Below, piece by piece: positions 21,277 to 31,387 of a stretch of DNA of 33,642 nt. The position numbers and the translations under genes are program-made. This stretch comes from an uncultured beta proteobacterium (lineage in GTDB: Bacteria > Pseudomonadota > Gammaproteobacteria > Burkholderiales > Burkholderiaceae_C), in the NCBI GenBank assembly GCA_903822205.1, contig CAIJOK010000023.1, positions 1-33,642 of the forward strand, read 5' to 3'. A model generated the notes under the pieces. The model searched no databases. It saw nothing but the letters and a program-made list of their open reading frames with translations, and was not told where the DNA came from. The stretch's first letter is position 1. Each line of letters starts with the position of its first letter.

Positions 21277-22485
21277 TTAGTCTTGCCCAAACAGGTCACG
21301 GCTATAGACTTTGCACGCCGCATCACGGATGTCATCTGTGATGCGGTTGGCCACAATCACGTCAGCCTCTGCCTTGAACTGTGCCAAGTCATTGACCACA
21401 CGGCTGTTGAAAAATGAAGCTACTTTGAGAGCAGGTTCGTACACGATGATTTCGACACCCTTGGCTTTGATGCGCTTCATAATGCCCTGAATGCTGCTGG
21501 CGCGAAAGTTGTCGCTACCAGCTTTCATCACCAAACGATAGATGCCAACGACACGGGGCTTCGGGGATACCTCATCACTGACATTTTCCGGTGAACGAAG
21601 GGGTGATGATGCAAGCTTTTCAAGGATGTCGGCAGCACAAAAGTCTTTGCGTGTGGTGTTGCTATCAACGATGGCCTGCATGATGTTTTGCGGGACAGCG
21701 TTGTAATTTGCCAGTAATTGTTTGGTGTCTTTGGGAAGACAGTAGCCGCCATAACCAAAGCTGGGATTGTTGTAGTGGCTGCCGATGCGCGGGTCTAAAC
21801 ACACGCCCTGGATGATTTGCTTGGTGGCCAGTCCGTGGGTGGCGGCGTAGGTGTCAAGCTCGTTGAAAAATGCCACGCGCATCGCCAAATAAGTGTTGGC
21901 AAAGAGTTTGACGGCTTCAGCTTCTGTGCTGTGGGTGAAAAGGACATCAATGTTTTGTTTGACAGCGCCTTGTTGCAAAAGTGCCGCAAAGGCTTTGGCA
22001 CGTTCACTGATTTCTCCAACGACGATTCTGCTGGGGTGCAAGTTGTCGTAGAGGGCGCGGCCTTCGCGCAGAAATTCGGGGCTGAAGATGACGTTAGGTT
22101 GATTGAGTTTGGCTGTGTAGCCTACGGGAACGGTGCTTTTAATGACCATCACTGCGCTGGGGTGGATACGCTGCACATCGTTTACGACAGATTCGATCGA
22201 CTGGGTGTTGAAGTAGTGAGTGGAAGGGTCGTAGTCGGTTGGGGTGGCGATGATCACAAAGTCGGCATTTGTGTAGGCCTCGGTCGCGTCTAGCGTGGCT
22301 CTGAAATTAATCTGCTTGTTTTGTAAGAAGTCTTCTATCTCAGCGTCTGCAATCGGACTTTGCTTGCGATTGAGCATGGCCACTTTTTCAGGGATGACAT
22401 CGATGGCAACCACTTCGTTGTGCTGGGCCAGCAGCATGGCGTTGGACAGGCCGACATAGCCAGTCCCGGCGATAGCGATTTTCAT
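21277..22485 (-). CDS. ugd: UDP-glucose 6-dehydrogenase (short type)
   Basis: 402 residues. It oxidises UDP-glucose to UDP-glucuronate with two NAD+, supplying precursors for exopolysaccharide or lipopolysaccharide. The NAD-binding [15 protein letters not shown] opens the protein. The middle has KSTVPVGYT and the [24 protein letters not shown] block of this family. The catalytic cysteine lies in the [15 protein letters not shown] motif. The C-terminal domain includes [15 protein letters not shown]. Its length fits the E. coli-type short UGDs. It is divergent from bcsD across a 310-base gap, so a sugar-nucleotide gene and a cellulose-synthase-like operon share one intergenic region. Confidence 0.95.
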
Positions 22486-22795: not shown

Positions 22796-23260
22796 ATGAC
22801 CAACCTGAGCTTCAACAACTACTTTCGCAGTCAGCAAGTCCCTCTACAGTGGCTGCCCATCTTGCGAGCCATGGCGCTTGAGTTTTCAGCCAACTTTGAC
22901 GAGGCCGCCTTGAGGCAACTTTTCTTCAGAGTGGGAGAGCATTTTGCAGAGGACGTGGAAGACCGTTTTCAGGGGGTTCAAACTTTGGCCGATTTGGAGG
23001 AGTATCTGAATGAATTTTGGGCCCAGTTGAATTGGGGGTGGGTGGAACTGACCGAGGTCACTGGTGCAATCAACATCGTCCACCAGGCACTGCCTCTGGC
23101 CGAGGCCTTTGGCGACGACTGTATGGTTTGGAGCGTGGGCCTGCTGGAGGGGTTTTACCAGACCGTTTTCCATGTGTTGGGTGCCGGTGATGGCATGAAG
23201 GTCTTGGCCGTGGCCGATGCCTGTAGCGACCTGACCGTGCAATTACGCTTTAGCCGATAA
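22796..23260 (+). CDS. bcsD: cellulose synthase subunit D homologue (BcsD)
   Basis: 154 residues, the family length. The central block LNEFWAQLNWGWVELTEV and the C-terminal DDCMVWSVGLLEGFYQTVFHVLGAGDGMKVL match the BcsD (AxCesD) family. In Komagataeibacter this protein forms an octameric periplasmic-face or cytoplasmic ring/rod that helps align terminal complexes and crystallise cellulose. No signal peptide is visible. It is the first gene of the plus-strand bcs-like operon, 34 bases before bcsP. Its presence with BcsP and BcsQ places the cluster in the bcsD-type (type I) group known from betaproteobacteria. Confidence 0.9.
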   Translation: MTNLSFNNYFRSQQVPLQWLPILRAMALEFSANFDEAALRQLFFRVGEHFAEDVEDRFQGVQTLADLEEYLNEFWAQLNWGWVELTEVTGAINIVHQALPLAEAFGDDCMVWSVGLLEGFYQTVFHVLGAGDGMKVLAVADACSDLTVQLRFSR

Positions 23261-23294: not shown

Positions 23295-24038
23295 ATGCCC
23301 AAGCACATCCCCGGGAACAAGCTTTCCCCCATTTTCAAATCGCTACAACCCGACCAGCCCTCTGGTGTTCAATGTGCGCCTGTTGCGCCTGTTGCGCCTG
23401 TTGCGCCTACTGCACCGGCCCTCGAAGCCCAGCAGCGCTGGCCATTGTTCAAGGCCATTACACCTGTTCAACCCACTGCCCCCCCCGCACTGACAGATGA
23501 AGAGCGCCAAAGCTGGCAACGATCCGGGGGCGTGAGCCTGCGTGACCTCCAGCAAGATGCGGCTGTGCCAAGTCTCAACGAAAAACTGGCCGACGGCCTG
23601 GGCAGGCTGGCAGGTGTCCATGCGGGCCATCAGCACCACAGCCACCACACCCTGGACGTACCCCCTCCTGCCCCACCCCACTCCACAGCCACTATGGACC
23701 ATGCGTCCACAGTCCCCCCTCCTGCACCTGAACCACCTGTATTTTTGCCCTCACCCCCGCTAACGACACCCAGCCTGTTCCCCCAGCCCGATACGCCCCC
23801 CCTTGAGCCTGCCGCCAGCACTGACATCCCTGCGGCCCCCACGCCTTCAACACGTGGTTTTTCATCGATCAGGCCGACCTTGGCCGTCAACCACATCCAG
23901 TCTGCTCCTGACGGTACGCCACAGCACCCAAGTGAGTCCCTCAAAAGCCTGTTCAGACGCCTGGAAAGCCCAACAGTTCCCATCACTCGGTCCGTTGCCA
24001 AAAAGTCTTCTTTTCTAAGCCGGTTAGGCAGGCGATGA
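23295..24038 (+). CDS. bcsP: proline-rich BcsP-like protein
   Basis: 247 residues of low complexity, very rich in Pro, Ala and Thr, with a His-rich patch (HAGHQHHSHH). An N-terminal short segment (KLSPIFKSL) and a C-terminal segment (SLKSLFRRLE ... SFLSRLGRR) are the only parts that look structured. Such proline-rich proteins with conserved short ends located between bcsD and bcsQ are called BcsP in betaproteobacterial cellulose operons; the role is thought to be spatial organisation of the synthase with BcsD, but that is family inference. A 9-bp tandem repeat encodes APV units near the N-terminus. The stop overlaps the bcsQ start in an ATGA (24035-24038). Position and composition drive the call more than sequence motifs. 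Confidence 0.7.
   Translation: MPKHIPGNKLSPIFKSLQPDQPSGVQCAPVAPVAPVAPTAPALEAQQRWPLFKAITPVQPTAPPALTDEERQSWQRSGGVSLRDLQQDAAVPSLNEKLADGLGRLAGVHAGHQHHSHHTLDVPPPAPPHSTATMDHASTVPPPAPEPPVFLPSPPLTTPSLFPQPDTPPLEPAASTDIPAAPTPSTRGFSSIRPTLAVNHIQSAPDGTPQHPSESLKSLFRRLESPTVPITRSVAKKSSFLSRLGRR
23376..23411 (+). repeat. 9-bp coding tandem repeat GCGCCTGTT
   Basis: Three perfect copies (23376-23384, 23385-23393, 23394-23402) and a fourth degenerate one (GCGCCTACT, 23403-23411) in frame in bcsP, encoding Ala-Pro-Val, Ala-Pro-Val, Ala-Pro-Val, Ala-Pro-Thr. Copy number changes would keep the frame and only alter linker length. Confidence 0.92.
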
Positions 24039-24796
24039 GCGTTATCGGTGTCGTTTCCATGAAGGGCGGCGTTGGAAAAACGACCACAACCGCCAATTTG
24101 GCCAGTGCTCTGGCCATCAAGCTTGGGCGGGGGAGCGTCAGCGTGCTTGACTTGGACCCCCAAAACGCCTTGCGCTGGCATTTGGGTTTGCCTGATACCC
24201 AGCAAGGTGTTTGCGATCTGTCCCGACGGGGAGGGGACTGGCGGCAAGTGGCATTTCCCAGTCCGTTTAACGTGCTGTGTCTGCCTTACGGTCAGGCTGA
24301 CGAGATCGGCCGCATGGCGTTTGAGGACGTTTTGGAACAGCATCCTCGTTGGGTCAGTGACCAGTTGGACCGCGCCGGCCTCAAGCAAAATGCCTTGGTT
24401 TTGATCGATACACCGCCTGGGCCATCGGTCTATCTGCGGCAGGTCTTTGCCTGTGCTGATTTTATTTTGGTGGTGTTGCTTGCAGATGCCGGCTCGTATG
24501 CCACTGTCCCCGCCATGCAAACCTGGCGGGCTGATGCCTCTGCTACACGCCCCAACCTGGGTGTGTATTACGTTCTTAACCAGGTGGACCGCAGTGACCC
24601 CTTGAACCGCGACACTGCGGCTTTTTTGCATCAACAACTTGTCTCTTGCATCTGTCCGGTCGACATTCACGGCGACGAGGCCGTTGGCGAGGCGCTGGCC
24701 TTTACCCAGCCTGTCTTGCAATATGAACCCCACGCCCAAGCCAGTCTCGATATGACTCGGCTGGCAACATGGGTGCTCGATATGCTGAACCGATGA
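24035..24796 (+). CDS. bcsQ: BcsQ, ParA/MinD-like ATPase of the cellulose synthase cluster (copy 1)
   Basis: 253 residues. The deviant Walker A motif KGGVGKTTTTANLASALA is at the N-terminus, followed by VLDLDPQNALRWHLG (Walker A' region) and LVLIDTPPGPSVYL (Walker B region). The ALAFTQPVLQYEPHAQASLD segment near the C-terminus is typical of BcsQ/YhjQ rather than plasmid ParA. BcsQ is needed for polar localisation or assembly of cellulose synthase in enterobacteria. It overlaps bcsP upstream and bcsA downstream by ATGA in each case, so the three proteins are translationally coupled. A second, related ATPase gene lies 4.7 kb downstream. Confidence 0.9.
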   Translation: MSVIGVVSMKGGVGKTTTTANLASALAIKLGRGSVSVLDLDPQNALRWHLGLPDTQQGVCDLSRRGGDWRQVAFPSPFNVLCLPYGQADEIGRMAFEDVLEQHPRWVSDQLDRAGLKQNALVLIDTPPGPSVYLRQVFACADFILVVLLADAGSYATVPAMQTWRADASATRPNLGVYYVLNQVDRSDPLNRDTAAFLHQQLVSCICPVDIHGDEAVGEALAFTQPVLQYEPHAQASLDMTRLATWVLDMLNR

Positions 24797-27060
24797 CCCC
24801 CTCTACCTTGTTATCGCTATGGCGTATGCGCTGGGGCAAAACCAACGTGACGGCTCTGGCGCAACCCCTGATAACGGGACGTTTGAGCGCATTGGGAGAC
24901 AGCCTGGCAGATTCATGGCTTTGGCGTGTGCCCGGATTCAACCTTTTGACCGTCGTGTTGTGGGGAGCAGTGCTATTTTTGCTGACACCCGTTCACCTGA
25001 CCTCGAACCACCAGTTGGCTTTGTCGCTGGTTTTGTTGCTGCCGGCGCTGTTGCTGAGGTGCTACAAAGGCCCTTGGATCACCCTGATGTTGTTGGGGCT
25101 TGCGCTGATCAGTACTTCGCGCTACCTGTATTGGCGCATGAGCCAAAGTCTGGGGACGGACGGCATCGATGCTGTGGCTTTTATAGCATTGGGCATCCTG
25201 GTGGCAGAGGTTTTGTACATTGCCCGGGTGGCCCTGTGCATCGCCAACCGGTTAGTGCCCCTTGCAGAACCCTCCAGTGCCCTGCCTGATGCTGTAGCCG
25301 ACTGGCCAACGGTGGGCATCTTTGTGGTGTGTACCGGTCAGCGTCTGACCCGCATTGAAGCAACCTTGCGCGCCGCAACAGACATTGCCTGGCCCAGACT
25401 CAAAATCACGCTTTACTTTATCGATGCGGTGGCACGCGACGGTGTACGCAAGTTTTTGAACGCCAACAATACCGTCTATCTGGTTTACCCCGAGCCTACC
25501 GACCATGCCCAGACTTCCAGCAATGGCTACATGAAAGGCGTTGTAAAAAGCGCGGTGACGACAGAAAACGCCACCGCCATGCTTAACCGCGTTCTGTCTG
25601 ATGCCAAAGAAGACCTGTGCGTCCTGCTGAACATAGGGGATGTTCCAACCAAACATTGCTTGACGGATACCCTGGGGTGGTTTTGGCGTGACCCCACGTT
25701 GGGATTGGTCTGCACCCCTGGGCATTTTTTGACCCCGCCTTTCAGCCTATCGCTGACAGGACGAGTTGAAGCGACTGCTCCCTCAGACGGCAGCTGGATG
25801 GTGCTGCGACGCAACATGCTGCTCTCGTTGGGCGGCCTGCCAGACGGGCCTGTCACCAGCCAACATCACATCGCACAGGTGATGCACCAAGCCGGCCTCA
25901 AACACGCTTTTGTTGTCTCGTCTGAGCATCTGCCGTCGAGCGGCTTGCCGCCTTGTATTCTGCCGTCGCGTACCGTGACCACGCCCCCCTCAGAGTCCTG
26001 GTATCGCCTGAATACACCTTTTGGGCGCTATTCATGGTGGTGGCGGTGTCGTATCCATCGCCTGAAAACTGCGCTGGATGCCTGTCTGCCCCTGCTGCAC
26101 TTGGTCTTTTGGGTCACTCCCATGGTATTTTTGTTGACTGGCTTGCTACCCGTCCACGCCCCGATCGCCGCCTTGCTGCCCTACGCCGTACCCCACTTGT
26201 TACAGGGCTGGTTGCTGTATCAACGCCTGCACACCCCTGTGCATCTAACGCTGTGGCTTGAGCTGCAAGAGGCCTTTTGGGCACTGTATTTGTTGGTTCT
26301 CACGACGGTGACGGTGACAGTGACCAAAGTCGGCCGAATGGTTAATGCCTGGAAAACCCACACACCACCCGTGCAGGGGCAGGTTGCATGGCCGATGAGC
26401 ACTCTGGATACGCTGCTGATGGCCGGATGGGGACTGTCGATCATCGTGGGTATCACCCTACTGCAACCAAGCGATATGCCTTTGCTGATCAACACCCTGT
26501 TCTATGGTGCATGGTGCGGCATGGGGTTGATGCTGGTGGCTGCCAAACTGGCAGTTGCCGAAGAGGAACAAGACCAGCGATTGCACCGACAGATCAGAAT
26601 GCAAATGCCCGCAATGCTCAAGCTACCCAACAACCGCACCGTGGCTTGCAACACCACTAACTTTCCGCAGCCCCACCTGCAACTGGCTGTGCCCACAGCC
26701 CTGCCGCTGCGGACGGGTGATGCCGTCAACATTTCACTTTTTAACGGATTTGATGAAGTTATCTTTGCTGGCCAAGTACAGTCCGCTGAGGACCGTGCCG
26801 TGTATGTCACTATCGACCCAAACGGTGGGGCGGAATACGCAGCGCTGGCTGATGCCGTAGCTGCCCGTGGCCACGATGGTCCGCCATGGCTGCCTGACAG
26901 CGATGCAGACCAAATCATCCCGGACTGGGTCACTGATGCATTGCAGTGGCCCCTACTGGCCTGGATGCGACTGTGGGCCAGTCTGATCCAAAAACAGCCG
27001 TCGGCAACACATCAACCCAAGCCCGCTGCACCACCCCCCTCGTCCACACCAAAATTATGA
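24793..27060 (+). CDS. BcsA-like protein lacking glycosyltransferase catalytic motifs
   Basis: 755 residues from the ATG at 24793 that overlaps the bcsQ stop. The BcsA architecture is kept: N-terminal membrane helices, the family motif TSRYLYWR (Ser109-Arg115), a GT2-like cytosolic domain (~170-380), further membrane helices and a C-terminal PilZ-like domain. By eye against canonical BcsA the key motifs are gone: DDG is IDAV (Asp211-Ala212-Val213), HAKAGN is HAQTSSN, the DXD of FDxDHVPT is LNIGDVPT (Asn280, Gly282), TED is TSQ (355-357, catalytic Asp to Gln357), and no QXXRW follows. The surrounding framework (DVPTxxxLxxTLGWFWRDPTL, VLRRNMLLSLGG) is conserved. The PilZ RXXXR is altered (R596-LHR-Q600) and D/NXSXXG reads N623-F-P-Q-P-H. 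Probably an inactive paralogue with a channel or scaffold role. The frame is intact, so this is not simple decay. Confidence 0.88.
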   Translation: MTPSTLLSLWRMRWGKTNVTALAQPLITGRLSALGDSLADSWLWRVPGFNLLTVVLWGAVLFLLTPVHLTSNHQLALSLVLLLPALLLRCYKGPWITLMLLGLALISTSRYLYWRMSQSLGTDGIDAVAFIALGILVAEVLYIARVALCIANRLVPLAEPSSALPDAVADWPTVGIFVVCTGQRLTRIEATLRAATDIAWPRLKITLYFIDAVARDGVRKFLNANNTVYLVYPEPTDHAQTSSNGYMKGVVKSAVTTENATAMLNRVLSDAKEDLCVLLNIGDVPTKHCLTDTLGWFWRDPTLGLVCTPGHFLTPPFSLSLTGRVEATAPSDGSWMVLRRNMLLSLGGLPDGPVTSQHHIAQVMHQAGLKHAFVVSSEHLPSSGLPPCILPSRTVTTPPSESWYRLNTPFGRYSWWWRCRIHRLKTALDACLPLLHLVFWVTPMVFLLTGLLPVHAPIAALLPYAVPHLLQGWLLYQRLHTPVHLTLWLELQEAFWALYLLVLTTVTVTVTKVGRMVNAWKTHTPPVQGQVAWPMSTLDTLLMAGWGLSIIVGITLLQPSDMPLLINTLFYGAWCGMGLMLVAAKLAVAEEEQDQRLHRQIRMQMPAMLKLPNNRTVACNTTNFPQPHLQLAVPTALPLRTGDAVNISLFNGFDEVIFAGQVQSAEDRAVYVTIDPNGGAEYAALADAVAARGHDGPPWLPDSDADQIIPDWVTDALQWPLLAWMRLWASLIQKQPSATHQPKPAAPPPSSTPKL

Positions 27061-29360
27061 GCAACCTTGCCACGTATCACAGTATTAATGGGATCAAACT
27101 GTCGCTGTTTGCCTTGGTTATCGGGCTTGTGTGCGTCTTCGCCAGTCCGTTGGCCCACGCAAAACGATCCAAACACAAGGCCGTCGTAGAGGAAGTCATC
27201 GAAACCACGTCATCTGACATCGCCACAGCTCCTAAAACACGCCAGGTGTCTTTGAGTTTCAAGCAAATGGGCGCTTGGTCATCGGTGAACCTGAACGGTG
27301 CGGACGGTTCTCGGACGCTTAATTTTTCGATTCGAGCCGATGAGGTGGTGACCTCTGCCAGACTCAAACTACAGTACGACTATTCGCCATCGCTGATACC
27401 CGAGCTAAGCCACCTGCGCATCTTGGTCAATGAGCATGTCGCCGCCGTTGATGTTCTTCCGCAGGGCAAAAATATCGCCAACAGCCGTGAATACGATCTT
27501 GACCCCCGGCTGTTCACCGATGTCAATTTTTTGCGGTTTAACCTGATTGGTCACTACACCCGCCAGTGCGAAGACCCCTTTCATTCGTCCTTGTGGCTAA
27601 CCCTGAGCGATTTGGGTCGGCTTGAGCTGACCTTGGCCTCCAAGGCCGCCACTTATGACCTTAAATATCTGCCAGCTCCGTTTATTGACAAACGAGACGG
27701 TGCCAAGCTCAAGCTGCCTTTTGTCTTTGTGGGAACACCCTCTGCGGGGACGATCAAGGCTGCCGGCATCGTCGCCTCATGGTTTGGCATACAGGCAGGC
27801 ATCCGGGGTGTGCAGTTTCCGGCCCAGTTCAACACCTTGCCTGACGGCAACGCCGTGGTCTTTGTGCAGGGCACGGAGAAGTTAAGCGGGGTGACGGTAC
27901 CGACTGGTGCCAGCGTGAGTATTGCACCTCACCCCACCAATCCTTCAGCCCAACTGTTGGTCGTGACGGGCATTGGCGATACCGAAATGTTGCGCGCAGC
28001 GCGAGCCATCGCCCTGATCAGTAGCACCTTGGCGGGGCAGTCGGTCACAGTCACCAAAGAAACCGATGCCACCCCACGTAAGCCCTACGACGCACCGGCC
28101 TGGGTGCCCGACAACCGGCCAGTGCGTTTGGGCGAGCTTGCACATCCTGAAGAACTGCGGGTTTTTGGCTGGTATCCAGACACCATTCGCGTCAACTACA
28201 GGGTGTCCCCAGACCTTTTTGCATGGCGCACACTGGGCACACCGTTCCACCTTAAATACCGATTTATCCGTCTGCCTGAGCACAAAAACTCTAGCCTGAA
28301 CGTCAGCGTGAACAACAACTTTTTGCATGCTTTTGCGCTGAATCTGCCATTCAAAAACCCAGACGAGATCAACCGCCTTAACCTGGCCGGCAGTGATCAT
28401 GTCTCCAGGCGCGATGACCTGCTCTATATTCCGCCCTACACCATCGGTGGCCGTGAACAGCTTCAAATGGGGTTTTTCTTTGAGATCATCAAACACGGCG
28501 AGTGTCAAAGCATGCCGCCAGAAAACCTACAGGCCTCGATCGACCCCGAATCCACGCTTGACTTTAGCACCCACCCCCACTATGCCGCCATGCCTAATCT
28601 GGCTTATTTTGCTAGCCTGGGCTACCCTTTTACGCGCATGGCCGACCTGTCAGGCACGGCTGTGGTGATGCCTGACCGGCCAAACCCCTTTGAACTGGGG
28701 ATGTATCTGACCCTCATGGGCCGCATGGGCGAGGCCACGGGCTATCCGGTGCTGCGCCACACCATCGTGACCGCCGCAGATGCTGACCGGGCCACAGACG
28801 CTGACCTCCTGGTGATCGGATCGGCCAACAGTCAGGCCTTGATGAGCAAATGGGCAGACAAGCTGCCGGTCGTTCCCATCAATGGCGAGCGCAGGGTGCG
28901 TGAGCCTGATGCCACCTGGATGCCCTCTTACCGCTGGGAAGAAAAAGACGTGCAATTCACCCCCCAGCCCAAGGGTGATCTCAATCTGACCGGCAACGGC
29001 TATCTGACCACGATCATGGCGTTTGAGTCCCCGCTCAAATCAGAGAAAAGCGTGGTCATGATCCACGCCGACAAAGCTGCCGACCTTCAAAAGGTGTCTG
29101 ATGTTTTGACTGACCCTGAGCGTGTGGGCCAGATCAAGGGTGACTTGGTGGTGGTGGACGACAAAACTGTCAATCACACCAAAGTCAGCGCCACCTATTA
29201 CGTGGGTTCGCTGTCGCGCTGGCAACGTCTGCAATGGCTTTTGGAGGACCACCCCGTGTGGGTCGGAATTTTGGCCGCATTGGTTTGCCTACTGGCGGCC
29301 ATCGCGGCCTACCGTCCGGTGCGTTTGTTGCTGGTTCAATACGCGAAACCCAAAGCGTAA
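27057..29360 (+). CDS. bcsB: BcsB, periplasmic cellulose synthase subunit homologue
   Basis: 767 residues from the ATG at 27057, which overlaps the bcsA-like stop (ATGA); an in-frame ATG at 26946 lies inside the upstream gene. A signal peptide (core LSLFALVIGLVCVFASPLAHA, cleavage near residue 35) leads into a BcsB domain: LSFKQMGAWSSVNLNG, LKLQYDYSPSLIPELSHLRILVNE, and the diagnostic GHYTRQCEDPFHSSLW. A C-terminal membrane helix (PVWVGILAALVCLLAAIAAY, ~735-755) anchors it next to BcsA. BcsB normally guides the glucan across the periplasm and its anchor helix is needed for BcsA activity. Here its partner appears catalytically dead, while BcsB itself looks normal. Bacterial cellulose operons usually continue with bcsZ and bcsC; these are not found. 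Confidence 0.93.
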   Translation: MSNLATYHSINGIKLSLFALVIGLVCVFASPLAHAKRSKHKAVVEEVIETTSSDIATAPKTRQVSLSFKQMGAWSSVNLNGADGSRTLNFSIRADEVVTSARLKLQYDYSPSLIPELSHLRILVNEHVAAVDVLPQGKNIANSREYDLDPRLFTDVNFLRFNLIGHYTRQCEDPFHSSLWLTLSDLGRLELTLASKAATYDLKYLPAPFIDKRDGAKLKLPFVFVGTPSAGTIKAAGIVASWFGIQAGIRGVQFPAQFNTLPDGNAVVFVQGTEKLSGVTVPTGASVSIAPHPTNPSAQLLVVTGIGDTEMLRAARAIALISSTLAGQSVTVTKETDATPRKPYDAPAWVPDNRPVRLGELAHPEELRVFGWYPDTIRVNYRVSPDLFAWRTLGTPFHLKYRFIRLPEHKNSSLNVSVNNNFLHAFALNLPFKNPDEINRLNLAGSDHVSRRDDLLYIPPYTIGGREQLQMGFFFEIIKHGECQSMPPENLQASIDPESTLDFSTHPHYAAMPNLAYFASLGYPFTRMADLSGTAVVMPDRPNPFELGMYLTLMGRMGEATGYPVLRHTIVTAADADRATDADLLVIGSANSQALMSKWADKLPVVPINGERRVREPDATWMPSYRWEEKDVQFTPQPKGDLNLTGNGYLTTIMAFESPLKSEKSVVMIHADKAADLQKVSDVLTDPERVGQIKGDLVVVDDKTVNHTKVSATYYVGSLSRWQRLQWLLEDHPVWVGILAALVCLLAAIAAYRPVRLLLVQYAKPKA

Positions 29361-29457: not shown

Positions 29458-30207
29458 ATGCAAATCATTGCTTTTATTTCCGGTAAAGGAGGTGTCGGCA
29501 AAACCACCCTGGCGGCCAACATGGCGGTCGCTTTGGTTCAGCGTAAAAAAAAGGTTTTGTTGATCGATCTGGACCCCCAAAACGCCCAAAAGCACCACCT
29601 GAGCATGGACCCCGACGAAATCGCCGGTCTGGTGCGCGAAGGCATTGCCCCCACGTCAATTTTTGAGAGTCCTTTTGAGGTCAGTTTTATCCCGTTTGGG
29701 CGTGTCACCGATGCTGAGCTACAAGCTTTTGAGACCCATCTCAGGCAAGATACCGACTGGGTGGCGGCAAGCATTCATTCGCTGGATGCGTTTGTTTTTG
29801 ACTACGTGCTCTTAGACACACCTCCTGGGCCGTCCGTTTACTTGCACCAGGCTCTCACGGCTGCCACGCACGCCATCGTCGTCCTACTGGCCGATGCCGC
29901 ATCGTTTGCAACCATCGGCCACATTTCATCTCTGGTGCATCAATGTACCCATGATCGCCCCAACTTTAGTGGGATGCACATGTTGATCAACCAGATGCCT
30001 CTACACAGCAAACTAGGACATCAGGTGCAATCGGCACTTTATTCTCACTATCCTGGTCAGATGATTCCAGCCTCCGTCCACCGAGACCCGCGTGTGTCGC
30101 AGGCTCTGGCGTTTGAACGGCCCGTCTTGCAGTACGAGCCTGGCTGCAAGGCCAGTTTGGACATTCAGTATGTGGCAGATTGGCTGGTCAATGGCCTGGA
30201 GCCTTGA
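29458..30207 (+). CDS. second BcsQ-like ParA/MinD-family ATPase
   Basis: 249 residues. Walker A is KGGVGKTTLAANMAVALV, followed by VLLIDLDPQNAQKHHL and VLLDTPPGPSVYLHQAL. It shares with the BcsQ at 24035 the LDTPPGPSVYL/IDTPPGPSVYL block, VVLLADAxSxAT, and the ALAFxxPVLQYEPxxxASLD segment, so it is a paralogue from the same family rather than a chromosome-partitioning ParA. It lies 97 bases after bcsB, separated by the T-rich repeat array, and 4 bases before the GH18-like gene. Two such ATPases could form a heterodimer or serve different positioning roles; this is inference. Confidence 0.88.
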   Translation: MQIIAFISGKGGVGKTTLAANMAVALVQRKKKVLLIDLDPQNAQKHHLSMDPDEIAGLVREGIAPTSIFESPFEVSFIPFGRVTDAELQAFETHLRQDTDWVAASIHSLDAFVFDYVLLDTPPGPSVYLHQALTAATHAIVVLLADAASFATIGHISSLVHQCTHDRPNFSGMHMLINQMPLHSKLGHQVQSALYSHYPGQMIPASVHRDPRVSQALAFERPVLQYEPGCKASLDIQYVADWLVNGLEP

Positions 30208-30211
30208 TTTT

Positions 30212-31387
30212 GTGAAGCCAAACCTCCTTGGTGCGCTAGCGCTGTCGATGTGTTTTCTGGTTGATCCTGTGATGGCGATGGGCAATGACCAGCAGCCCCT
30301 CAAGGCCTTGGGCTACCTGGCCTGGTGGATGCCTGACAGTTGGCGCAGCGTGCCGCTGAATGAGCTGGACCGACTTTTGTTTTTTGGCCTTACCGTCGAT
30401 CCATCAGGCCATGTGAGCGACCGACACGGATGGCCTGAGCAATGGCAAGAGCTGCAAGCCGCCACTCGCTTGCACCAAGTACCGGTCGATGTGGCCTTGA
30501 CCCTACTGGATGCCAAGGGCTTTAACGCCCTGTTTGGCTCTGAATCTGCGGTCAATACCCTGATGACCGATGCGCTAGAGCTGGCAAATCAAAGTCAGGT
30601 TGCCGGTCTGCATCTGGACGTTGAAGTCTACGATGGGGCCAACCCCATGGCCATCACGCACTACCGCAATTTTGTGGTCACCCTGGCCGGGCAATTGCAA
30701 CAACTGTCGCCCCCCAAAATCCTGTCCGTATTTTGTCAGGCCGGAGGTCATCCACCGCTCTACGATGCCGAGACTTTGCACCACGCCAGCCTGGTTGTGA
30801 TGCAGGCCTACGATACCCACTACCAGGGCAGCCCTAACGCCGGGCCGGTAGCCCCCCTGGCGGGGTCTGATGCCTTGACTTGGCGGTCTGCTGCATCCAC
30901 TGGTGTGGCGCTGGGGGTGCCTAAAGATCGGCTTGTGATGGGCTTTCCGCTCTACGGCTATGAGTGGCCGGTCAAAACGGGCCAACTGCGCAGTGCCGTT
31001 CAGGGTGGCGGCCAGGTCACCACCTTTGCCGCCGTTCCACCGAACGTGTTGCCGGCCATTCAAACCAGCATCACCCAGCGCGTGCAGCAGTACGGGGCCA
31101 CGCATGATCCTGTCAGCGGGTCATCTCATTACCAATTCAAGAATACAGGCGGTCGCCGCATCGAAGGCTGGTTTGAAGACTGGTGGTCGCTTGGAAAAAA
31201 GTTTGACTTTTTGGTCAAAGAGCAATTGGGCGGCATGGCTTTTTTTGTGCTGGGCTACGACGATGGCGCACTGGTTCGCTATTATTTGCAACGCCGTGGC
31301 CCCAAAAATCATGACGCTCTCCCTGTGACAGACCCCCCTGTTGATGCCGTACAGCCGACGATACAGAACGCTCCACCTGTACCCTAA
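30212..31387 (+). CDS. secreted GH18-like glycosidase
   Basis: 391 residues from a GTG at 30212, preferred because it gives a clean signal peptide (VKPNLLGALALSMCFLVDPVMA) with GGAG about 10 bases upstream; an ATG at 30191 in frame is the alternative. The mature part resembles the GH18 TIM barrel: LGYLAWWMPDSWRS opening, the catalytic strand VAGLHLDVE where the family has DGxDxDxE (Asp136 and the acid Glu138 kept, the first two Asp replaced by Ala and His134), MQAYDTHYQG, RLVMGFPLYGYEW and GGMAFFVLGYDDG. The catalytic Glu is kept, so hydrolysis is possible; GH18 normally cleaves beta-1,4-GlcNAc polymers. It ends in a Pro-rich tail. Placed as the last gene after a BcsB and BcsQ, where cellulose clusters carry the BcsZ cellulase. 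Confidence 0.75.
   Translation: MKPNLLGALALSMCFLVDPVMAMGNDQQPLKALGYLAWWMPDSWRSVPLNELDRLLFFGLTVDPSGHVSDRHGWPEQWQELQAATRLHQVPVDVALTLLDAKGFNALFGSESAVNTLMTDALELANQSQVAGLHLDVEVYDGANPMAITHYRNFVVTLAGQLQQLSPPKILSVFCQAGGHPPLYDAETLHHASLVVMQAYDTHYQGSPNAGPVAPLAGSDALTWRSAASTGVALGVPKDRLVMGFPLYGYEWPVKTGQLRSAVQGGGQVTTFAAVPPNVLPAIQTSITQRVQQYGATHDPVSGSSHYQFKNTGGRRIEGWFEDWWSLGKKFDFLVKEQLGGMAFFVLGYDDGALVRYYLQRRGPKNHDALPVTDPPVDAVQPTIQNAPPVP

Follow-up and report, generated by a model that had tools for sequence, protein, structure and literature searches.

The subject of this study is a cellulose-synthase-like (Bcs) locus in a 33,642-nucleotide stretch of DNA from an uncultured beta-proteobacterium, probably of the genus Rhodoferax (Comamonadaceae). 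The stretch, called the window here, is an entire contig (C23; CAIJOK010000023.1) of a 3.05 Mb genome in 146 contigs (G000; GCA_903822205.1). In the place of the synthase BcsA, the locus encodes a BcsA-fold protein from which the motifs of a processive family 2 glycosyltransferase (GT2) have been lost. We call it pseudo-BcsA. In the Type I Bcs systems of beta-proteobacteria, BcsB, BcsQ, BcsD and a BcsP-like protein likewise surround a BcsA-fold protein (PMC11470070, in the accessible part of its text). The window differs in that the synthase is dead, the PilZ motif is lost, BcsZ is missing from the locus and a BcsC barrel from the genome. It also has a second BcsQ, a glycoside hydrolase of family 18 (GH18) and a separate GT2 cluster. 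The Pga/Ica systems for poly-N-acetylglucosamine (poly-GlcNAc) resemble this cluster in their PgaC-like GT2, a deacetylase of carbohydrate esterase family 4 (CE4) type and a candidate porin rich in tetratricopeptide repeats (TPR) and β-structure. Here, however, the GT2 scores under the PgaC cut-off, the deacetylase is not named PgaB, and BcsE and Bcs proteins are linked. The Wss system for acetylated cellulose has an active synthase. Its likeness lies in MBOAT and AlgX-type genes (PMC7112194, seen in excerpt), which stand downstream of the pseudo-bcsA operon in many relatives; the window locus is without such acetylation genes, and five AlgX-like matches lie elsewhere in its genome.

The nearest precedent is the sfz stalk-formation cluster of Zetaproteobacteria (iron-oxidizer stalks), in which a BcsB-like protein is proposed to act with a GT2 other than BcsA. 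The sfz GT2 has an EpsE-like N-terminal domain, and the available passages of PMC8250860 mention no pseudo-BcsA. No EpsE/MshEN fusion was found in the GT2 of Rhodoferax, for which the family search gave GT2-type families only. A T2SSE ATPase with an extended MshEN/c-di-GMP (cyclic di-GMP)-binding N-terminus is encoded after the GH18 gene in G023 (L017:10164-12776). An initial annotation, made from the letters of the DNA alone, knew of no described system like this one. We found no pseudo-BcsA family described in the accessible text of the open-licence literature searched, and the part of PMC7439463 at hand held no passage on other taxa or polysaccharides; the sfz proposal qualifies the claim of novelty.

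The reading frame of the window pseudo-BcsA is intact. TED, QXXRW, DXD, HAKAGN, the PilZ c-di-GMP motif and most of DDG are gone. The sites read IDAV (DDG), NIG (DXD) and TSQ (TED), and no QXXRW remains, as the initial annotation had stated. Against TIGR03030 the protein scores 186.6 bits, under the cut-off of 699.1. We aligned 21 pseudo-BcsA with 16 canonical BcsA sequences and added a 22nd copy (G105) for a whole-protein regular-expression search. TED, QXXRW and FFCGS are missing at the aligned places in 21/21 and occur in none of the 22 full-length proteins, all of which contain NFP. The PilZ motif DxSxxG (14/16 canonical sequences) has become NFPxxxL in 21/21. All 22 reading frames are open. 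Displaced motifs are ruled out by the alignment and the whole-protein search. Because the catalytic-base and acceptor-binding motifs are gone, pseudo-BcsA is not expected to act as a processive GT2. The predicted structure retains the BcsA fold, the membrane helices and the PilZ fold (the comparison took only chains chosen by Foldseek). The gene encodes a conserved pseudo-synthase with the BcsA fold. In a phylogenetic tree, one branch (SH-aLRT 100, length 0.61) parts the 21 pseudo-BcsA from the 16 canonical sequences; as this was a quick, unrooted search with no bootstrap and three long rows, it does not demonstrate a single origin of the losses. The pseudo copy of G094 (L038:6644-8824), at 424 bits against TIGR03030, retains LLDD, GKVGN and DCD. 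Judged by these residues, it is a possible evolutionary intermediate.

Parts of the old catalytic cleft survive. The first Asp of DDG is retained in 20/21 pseudo-BcsA, DXD is still in place in 6/21, and TPxH is kept (T308 in 20, P309 in 18 and H311 in all 21). These residues would suit a new active site in the GT-A cleft, belonging to an enzyme or a sensor that binds, for example, a nucleotide sugar without transfer. However, the 101 positions of GT-A that are invariant in canonical BcsA are kept, on average, in 7.4 of the 21 pseudo-BcsA, and the 19 GT-A positions that 18 or more of the 21 share form no evident new polar cluster. We consider a new active site very unlikely.

By score, pseudo-BcsA is present in 18 of 90 Rhodoferax genomes, and the motifs were checked in all 18 (via loci L045, L037 and L042 for G074, G098 and G103). 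Outside the genus, full-length copies occur in Hydrogenophaga (L069), in Noviherbaspirillum galbum (L059) and at L048 and L053, and partial copies at L054 and L143. The 18 genomes and the four full-length loci outside the genus share the loss of TED and QXXRW, and recent decay in one strain is thereby ruled out. Strain decay and displaced motifs were the two outcomes named by the initial annotation as refuting it, and neither holds. Of 399 genomes surveyed in the order, 89 matched, and none but the window's protein exceeded 500 bits; motifs show the 11 loci that were examined (L118-L128) to be canonical. A family survey (399 genomes, E≤1e-60) found BcsA-like proteins in 44. Among its loci, L135 is the pseudo copy of G010, L136-L139 are canonical, the G607 copy is pseudo and the G499 copy canonical. 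G066 carries a divergent bcsB-bcsZ locus in which no BcsA was recognized with the references used.

Among the 90 genomes, 12 have pseudo-BcsA only, two have canonical BcsA only, and six (G018, G033, G034, G074, G094, G103) have both, the canonical copy being over the TIGR03030 cut-off. These six would allow a mixed synthase complex in which pseudo-BcsA regulates or structurally supports canonical BcsA, and the initial annotation had considered a second, active BcsA. Such a partner is not the general answer, since in 12/18 pseudo-BcsA genomes no canonical BcsA exceeds the cut-off. The window's genome is among them; apart from pseudo-BcsA, TIGR03030 matches only the PgaC-like GT2 there. Six of the 12 are at least 90% complete (G000, G001, G010, G064, G081, G107), and G010 and G064 are single-contig; in the other six the lack is less sure because they are 70–89% complete. 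The 12 genomes also lack the BcsC barrel (PF05420; no match in G000), except for a partial match in G014. With that match the barrel is found in 8/90 genomes, and the other seven are among the eight genomes that carry canonical BcsA. A mixed complex is therefore quite unlikely. In BcsC's place, pseudo-bcsA loci often encode a short TPR protein that begins with a signal-like segment; the N. galbum counterpart is longer (899 amino acids) and matched no barrel family.

The ratio of nonsynonymous to synonymous substitution rates (dN/dS) is 0.26–0.28 in three close pseudo-BcsA pairs, among the 22 most similar pairs listed. For canonical BcsA it is 0.05–0.14 at an identity of at least 81% and 0.16 near 70%, and one and the same genome pair gives 0.26 for pseudo-BcsA and 0.14 for canonical BcsA. 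Between the window and its nearest relative (G105), pseudo-BcsA gives 0.28 with a dS of 1.8, the partial BcsB 0.10 and BcsQ1 0.08; dS is near saturation. This pair shows no clear regional difference in pseudo-BcsA. We compared regional identities in eight pairs, not independent of one another, from five genomes carrying both copies. The identities (pseudo/canonical) are 50–94/88–97% for GT-A, 38–90/85–98% for transmembrane helices 5–8 (TM5-8), 53–93/72–94% for the N-terminal region and 72–93/74–99% for PilZ; BcsB at the same loci gives 76–96/72–97%. In the pair G094/G018, for example, they are 50/90 (GT-A), 38/87 (TM5-8), 76/74 (PilZ) and 76/72 (BcsB). These same-genome pairs show relaxation in the synthase core but not in BcsB. 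Selection on pseudo-BcsA is purifying but relaxed, mostly in the glycosyltransferase and channel regions, which bears out the view of the initial annotation that the gene looks expressed and is under selection.

The relaxed regions raise the question of a relic, slowly decaying and retained only for the useful operon around it through polar or coupling effects. The translational overlaps of the gene could protect its frame, and nine other rows of the alignment (A1) have 28–34% identity to the window pseudo-BcsA, compared with 55–71% for their BcsB. Against a relic stand the open frames of all full-length copies, the new shared NFP motif, a dN/dS clearly below 1 and a PilZ identity that lies no more than 5 points from that of canonical BcsA in 5/8 of these non-independent pairs. 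We judge a relic unlikely. The relaxed TM5-8 also bears on a further suggestion of the initial annotation, that pseudo-BcsA serves as a channel, through which the product of the GT2 would pass. The modeled BcsA fold with its membrane helices would permit this. Much of the BcsA channel is located in TM5-8, however, and this region loses most relative to canonical BcsA in 8/8 pairs. Synthases of the HAS/PgaC type have flanking hydrophobic segments of their own, and such segments were also seen by eye in the GT2. An inner-membrane channel is thus disfavored and quite improbable.

The best family name of the GT2 is PgaC_IcaA. In the window's genome it stands in a cluster of bcsE, u532, GT2 and deacetylase, and its motifs DDGSTD, DGD, ED and QRYRW are invariant in 16/16 aligned relatives. 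Strong orthologues occur in 18/90 genus genomes (17 besides the window's, 67–80% identity), all with BcsB, which is present in 21/90 (hypergeometric 3.5e-16, uncorrected for relatedness). The GT2 is found in 16/18 pseudo-BcsA genomes and is missing from G025 and G105, which are 86 and 75% complete. In the family survey, it occurs in 6/399 genomes, and 40 of the 44 genomes with BcsA-like proteins are without it. Both are matched in G000, G010, G499 and G607; the remaining two GT2 genomes are G567, whose contig breaks off in a pseudo-BcsA-like sequence not long enough to show the motifs, and G764, whose contig ends in bcsD. The GT2 and deacetylase genes run straight into bcsD-bcsQ1-pseudo-bcsA on one strand at L048/L140 (same contig), L053 and L143, where pseudo-bcsA is cut by the contig end. 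The distance between GT2 and pseudo-bcsA is 16–17 kb in G014, G031, G081 and G107, 63 kb in G010 and >1 Mb in G064.

The deacetylase has the Asp, HxxxH and RxP motifs of CE4-type enzymes, invariant in 14/14, and CE4 matches in the PDB from 9e-6. In many GT2 clusters, a gene divergent to bcsE encodes a second, distant deacetylase-like protein (approximately 685 amino acids; L097:14114-16168 (-) and equivalents). The u532 protein has TPR matches and no NCBIfam match. The model of a relative's u532 (L048, N-terminus cut) has TPR helices and approximately 15 strands at a pLDDT of 47, which is too weak to establish an outer-membrane barrel. BcsE keeps its RxGD c-di-GMP site in 13/13 examined. Counting the window, 15 loci in which the pseudo gene itself is covered carry GH18, and no canonical bcsA locus searched does; at L045 and G105 the sequence stops too soon to judge. 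Conversely, bcsZ was found at no pseudo-bcsA locus searched. In G499, GH18 lies beside the GT2 cluster, and canonical bcsA is on another contig. The GH18 catalytic pair DxE is kept in 17/17 sequences (LHLDVE at the active-site strand of the window's protein), and the best PDB match is the spore protein YaaH (4s3k, E 6e-9). The likeness to PgaC, the CE4-type deacetylase and GH18 suggest that the polymer is probably GlcNAc-based.

Co-occurrence and operon linkage point to a docked machine that serves this polymer. We propose that pseudo-BcsA is a membrane dock that retains BcsB, BcsQ and BcsP-BcsD in the service of the GlcNAc-type polymer that the PgaC-like GT2 would make, and give this a probability of roughly 0.48. 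Within the E. coli complex, BcsQ touches the PilZ module, and the back face of GT/PilZ is plugged by BcsR. For beta-proteobacterial BcsP, the recruiter of BcsD, modeling gave the N-terminus a similar plugging role (PMC11470070, accessible part). The BcsP-like proteins of pseudo and canonical loci have similar N-termini and the same gene position. In the proposed dock, the N-terminal helices of pseudo-BcsA would hold BcsB, and its PilZ module would hold BcsQ and BcsP-BcsD. The hinge arginine equivalent (R692; equivalence from alignment, native numbering assumed) is kept in 20/21 pseudo-BcsA. The secretion assembly would persist without a cellulose synthase, now for the polymer of the GT2, whose cluster also encodes u532, a TPR/β-rich outer-membrane candidate. 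Regulation by c-di-GMP may have moved to BcsE, since BcsE keeps its binding site. GH18 would trim the polymer as BcsZ trims cellulose, and the acetyltransferases adjoining in relatives may modify it. The initial annotation had already suggested a scaffold for another polymer; the GT2 cluster supplies a concrete candidate, and both the scaffold role and the identity of the polymer are still deduced indirectly. A wider version is more tentative: the whole cellulose-secretion machine may have been re-tasked around a non-catalytic BcsA scaffold, with the BcsB assembly and the BcsD-BcsP cytoskeleton organizing how a GlcNAc polymer, in part deacetylated, is exported to form ordered, chitosan-like fibers, the polymerase being a PgaC-like synthase from a different lineage.

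Several observations weigh against the proposed dock. The GT2 cluster and pseudo-bcsA of the window's genome stand on different contigs (C139 and C23), and the GT2 reaches 224.4 bits against TIGR03937, compared with a cut-off of 422.3. The GT2 lies 10–11 kb from canonical bcsA in G018, G034, G074, G094 and G027, and G017 and G027 carry it with no pseudo-BcsA; the position near canonical operons weakens an exclusive pairing of GT2 and pseudo-BcsA. In G107, bcsE is split across two open reading frames. PilZ is no slower than the rest of the protein between the window and G105 (48% identity, compared with 43–47% elsewhere), and in the three closest of the eight pairs it falls under canonical BcsA (93/99, 81/95, 78/94). 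The second triad arginine, on the glycosyltransferase side (E. coli R367, K287 in the window), is kept in 3/21. GH18 was not seen at the pseudo loci L037, L042, G018, G034, G001 and L048. The partial BcsC-barrel match in G014 is in a pseudo-only genome.

The genes of the window locus (Table 1) have the order of canonical Bcs loci of the same genus. ATGA overlaps join bcsP to bcsQ1, bcsQ1 to pseudo-bcsA and pseudo-bcsA to bcsB; the overlaps with bcsQ and bcsB and the normal BcsB had been noted in the initial annotation. The block is flanked by PhaR on one side and by unrelated genes on the other. A UDP-glucose 6-dehydrogenase gene (window 21277-22485 (-)) is divergent beside bcsD. At L017:214-1572 (-), the gene divergent beside bcsD encodes a major facilitator superfamily transporter with an acetyl-CoA-transporter-like match (PF13000) and with orthologues placed alike in G010, G033, G107 and G105. 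It possibly has a role in oligosaccharide recycling.

Table 1. Features of the Bcs locus in the window.
Feature	Position	Strand	Evidence
bcsD, cellulose synthase subunit D	22796..23260	+	PF03500, E 1.3e-16
bcsP-like, proline-rich	23295..24038	+	NF040718, E 6.8e-4, 19.1 bits, under cut-off 55
bcsQ1, SIMIBI ATPase, Walker A intact (KGGVGKT)	24035..24796	+	TIGR03371, 208.5 bits, cut-off 157.85
pseudo-bcsA; BcsA fold, processive GT2 motifs and PilZ c-di-GMP motif lost	24793..27060	+	
bcsB, normal family member	27057..29360	+	PF03170, E 2.1e-206; NF008323, 756.9 bits, cut-off 750
bcsQ2, second BcsQ-type ATPase, Walker A intact	29458..30207	+	TIGR03371, 179.1 bits, cut-off 157.85
GH18-type hydrolase, putatively exported (GTG start chosen; signal-peptide-like N-terminus judged by eye)	30212..31387	+	PF00704, E 1.9e-19

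In the open-licence literature searched, we found no description of what this group of freshwater bacteria shows: inactive versions of a processive polysaccharide synthase that are retained in more than one genus, within the operon of the synthase itself. If pseudo-BcsA is indeed a scaffold, the structural role of BcsA in holding BcsB, BcsQ and BcsP-BcsD is separated here from catalysis, and the protein would be a natural separation-of-function variant for studies of Bcs assembly. An exopolysaccharide machine would then have switched its product by a swap of polymerase with the frame retained. Genomes annotated as cellulose producers from bcsB, bcsD or bcsQ alone would need re-reading.

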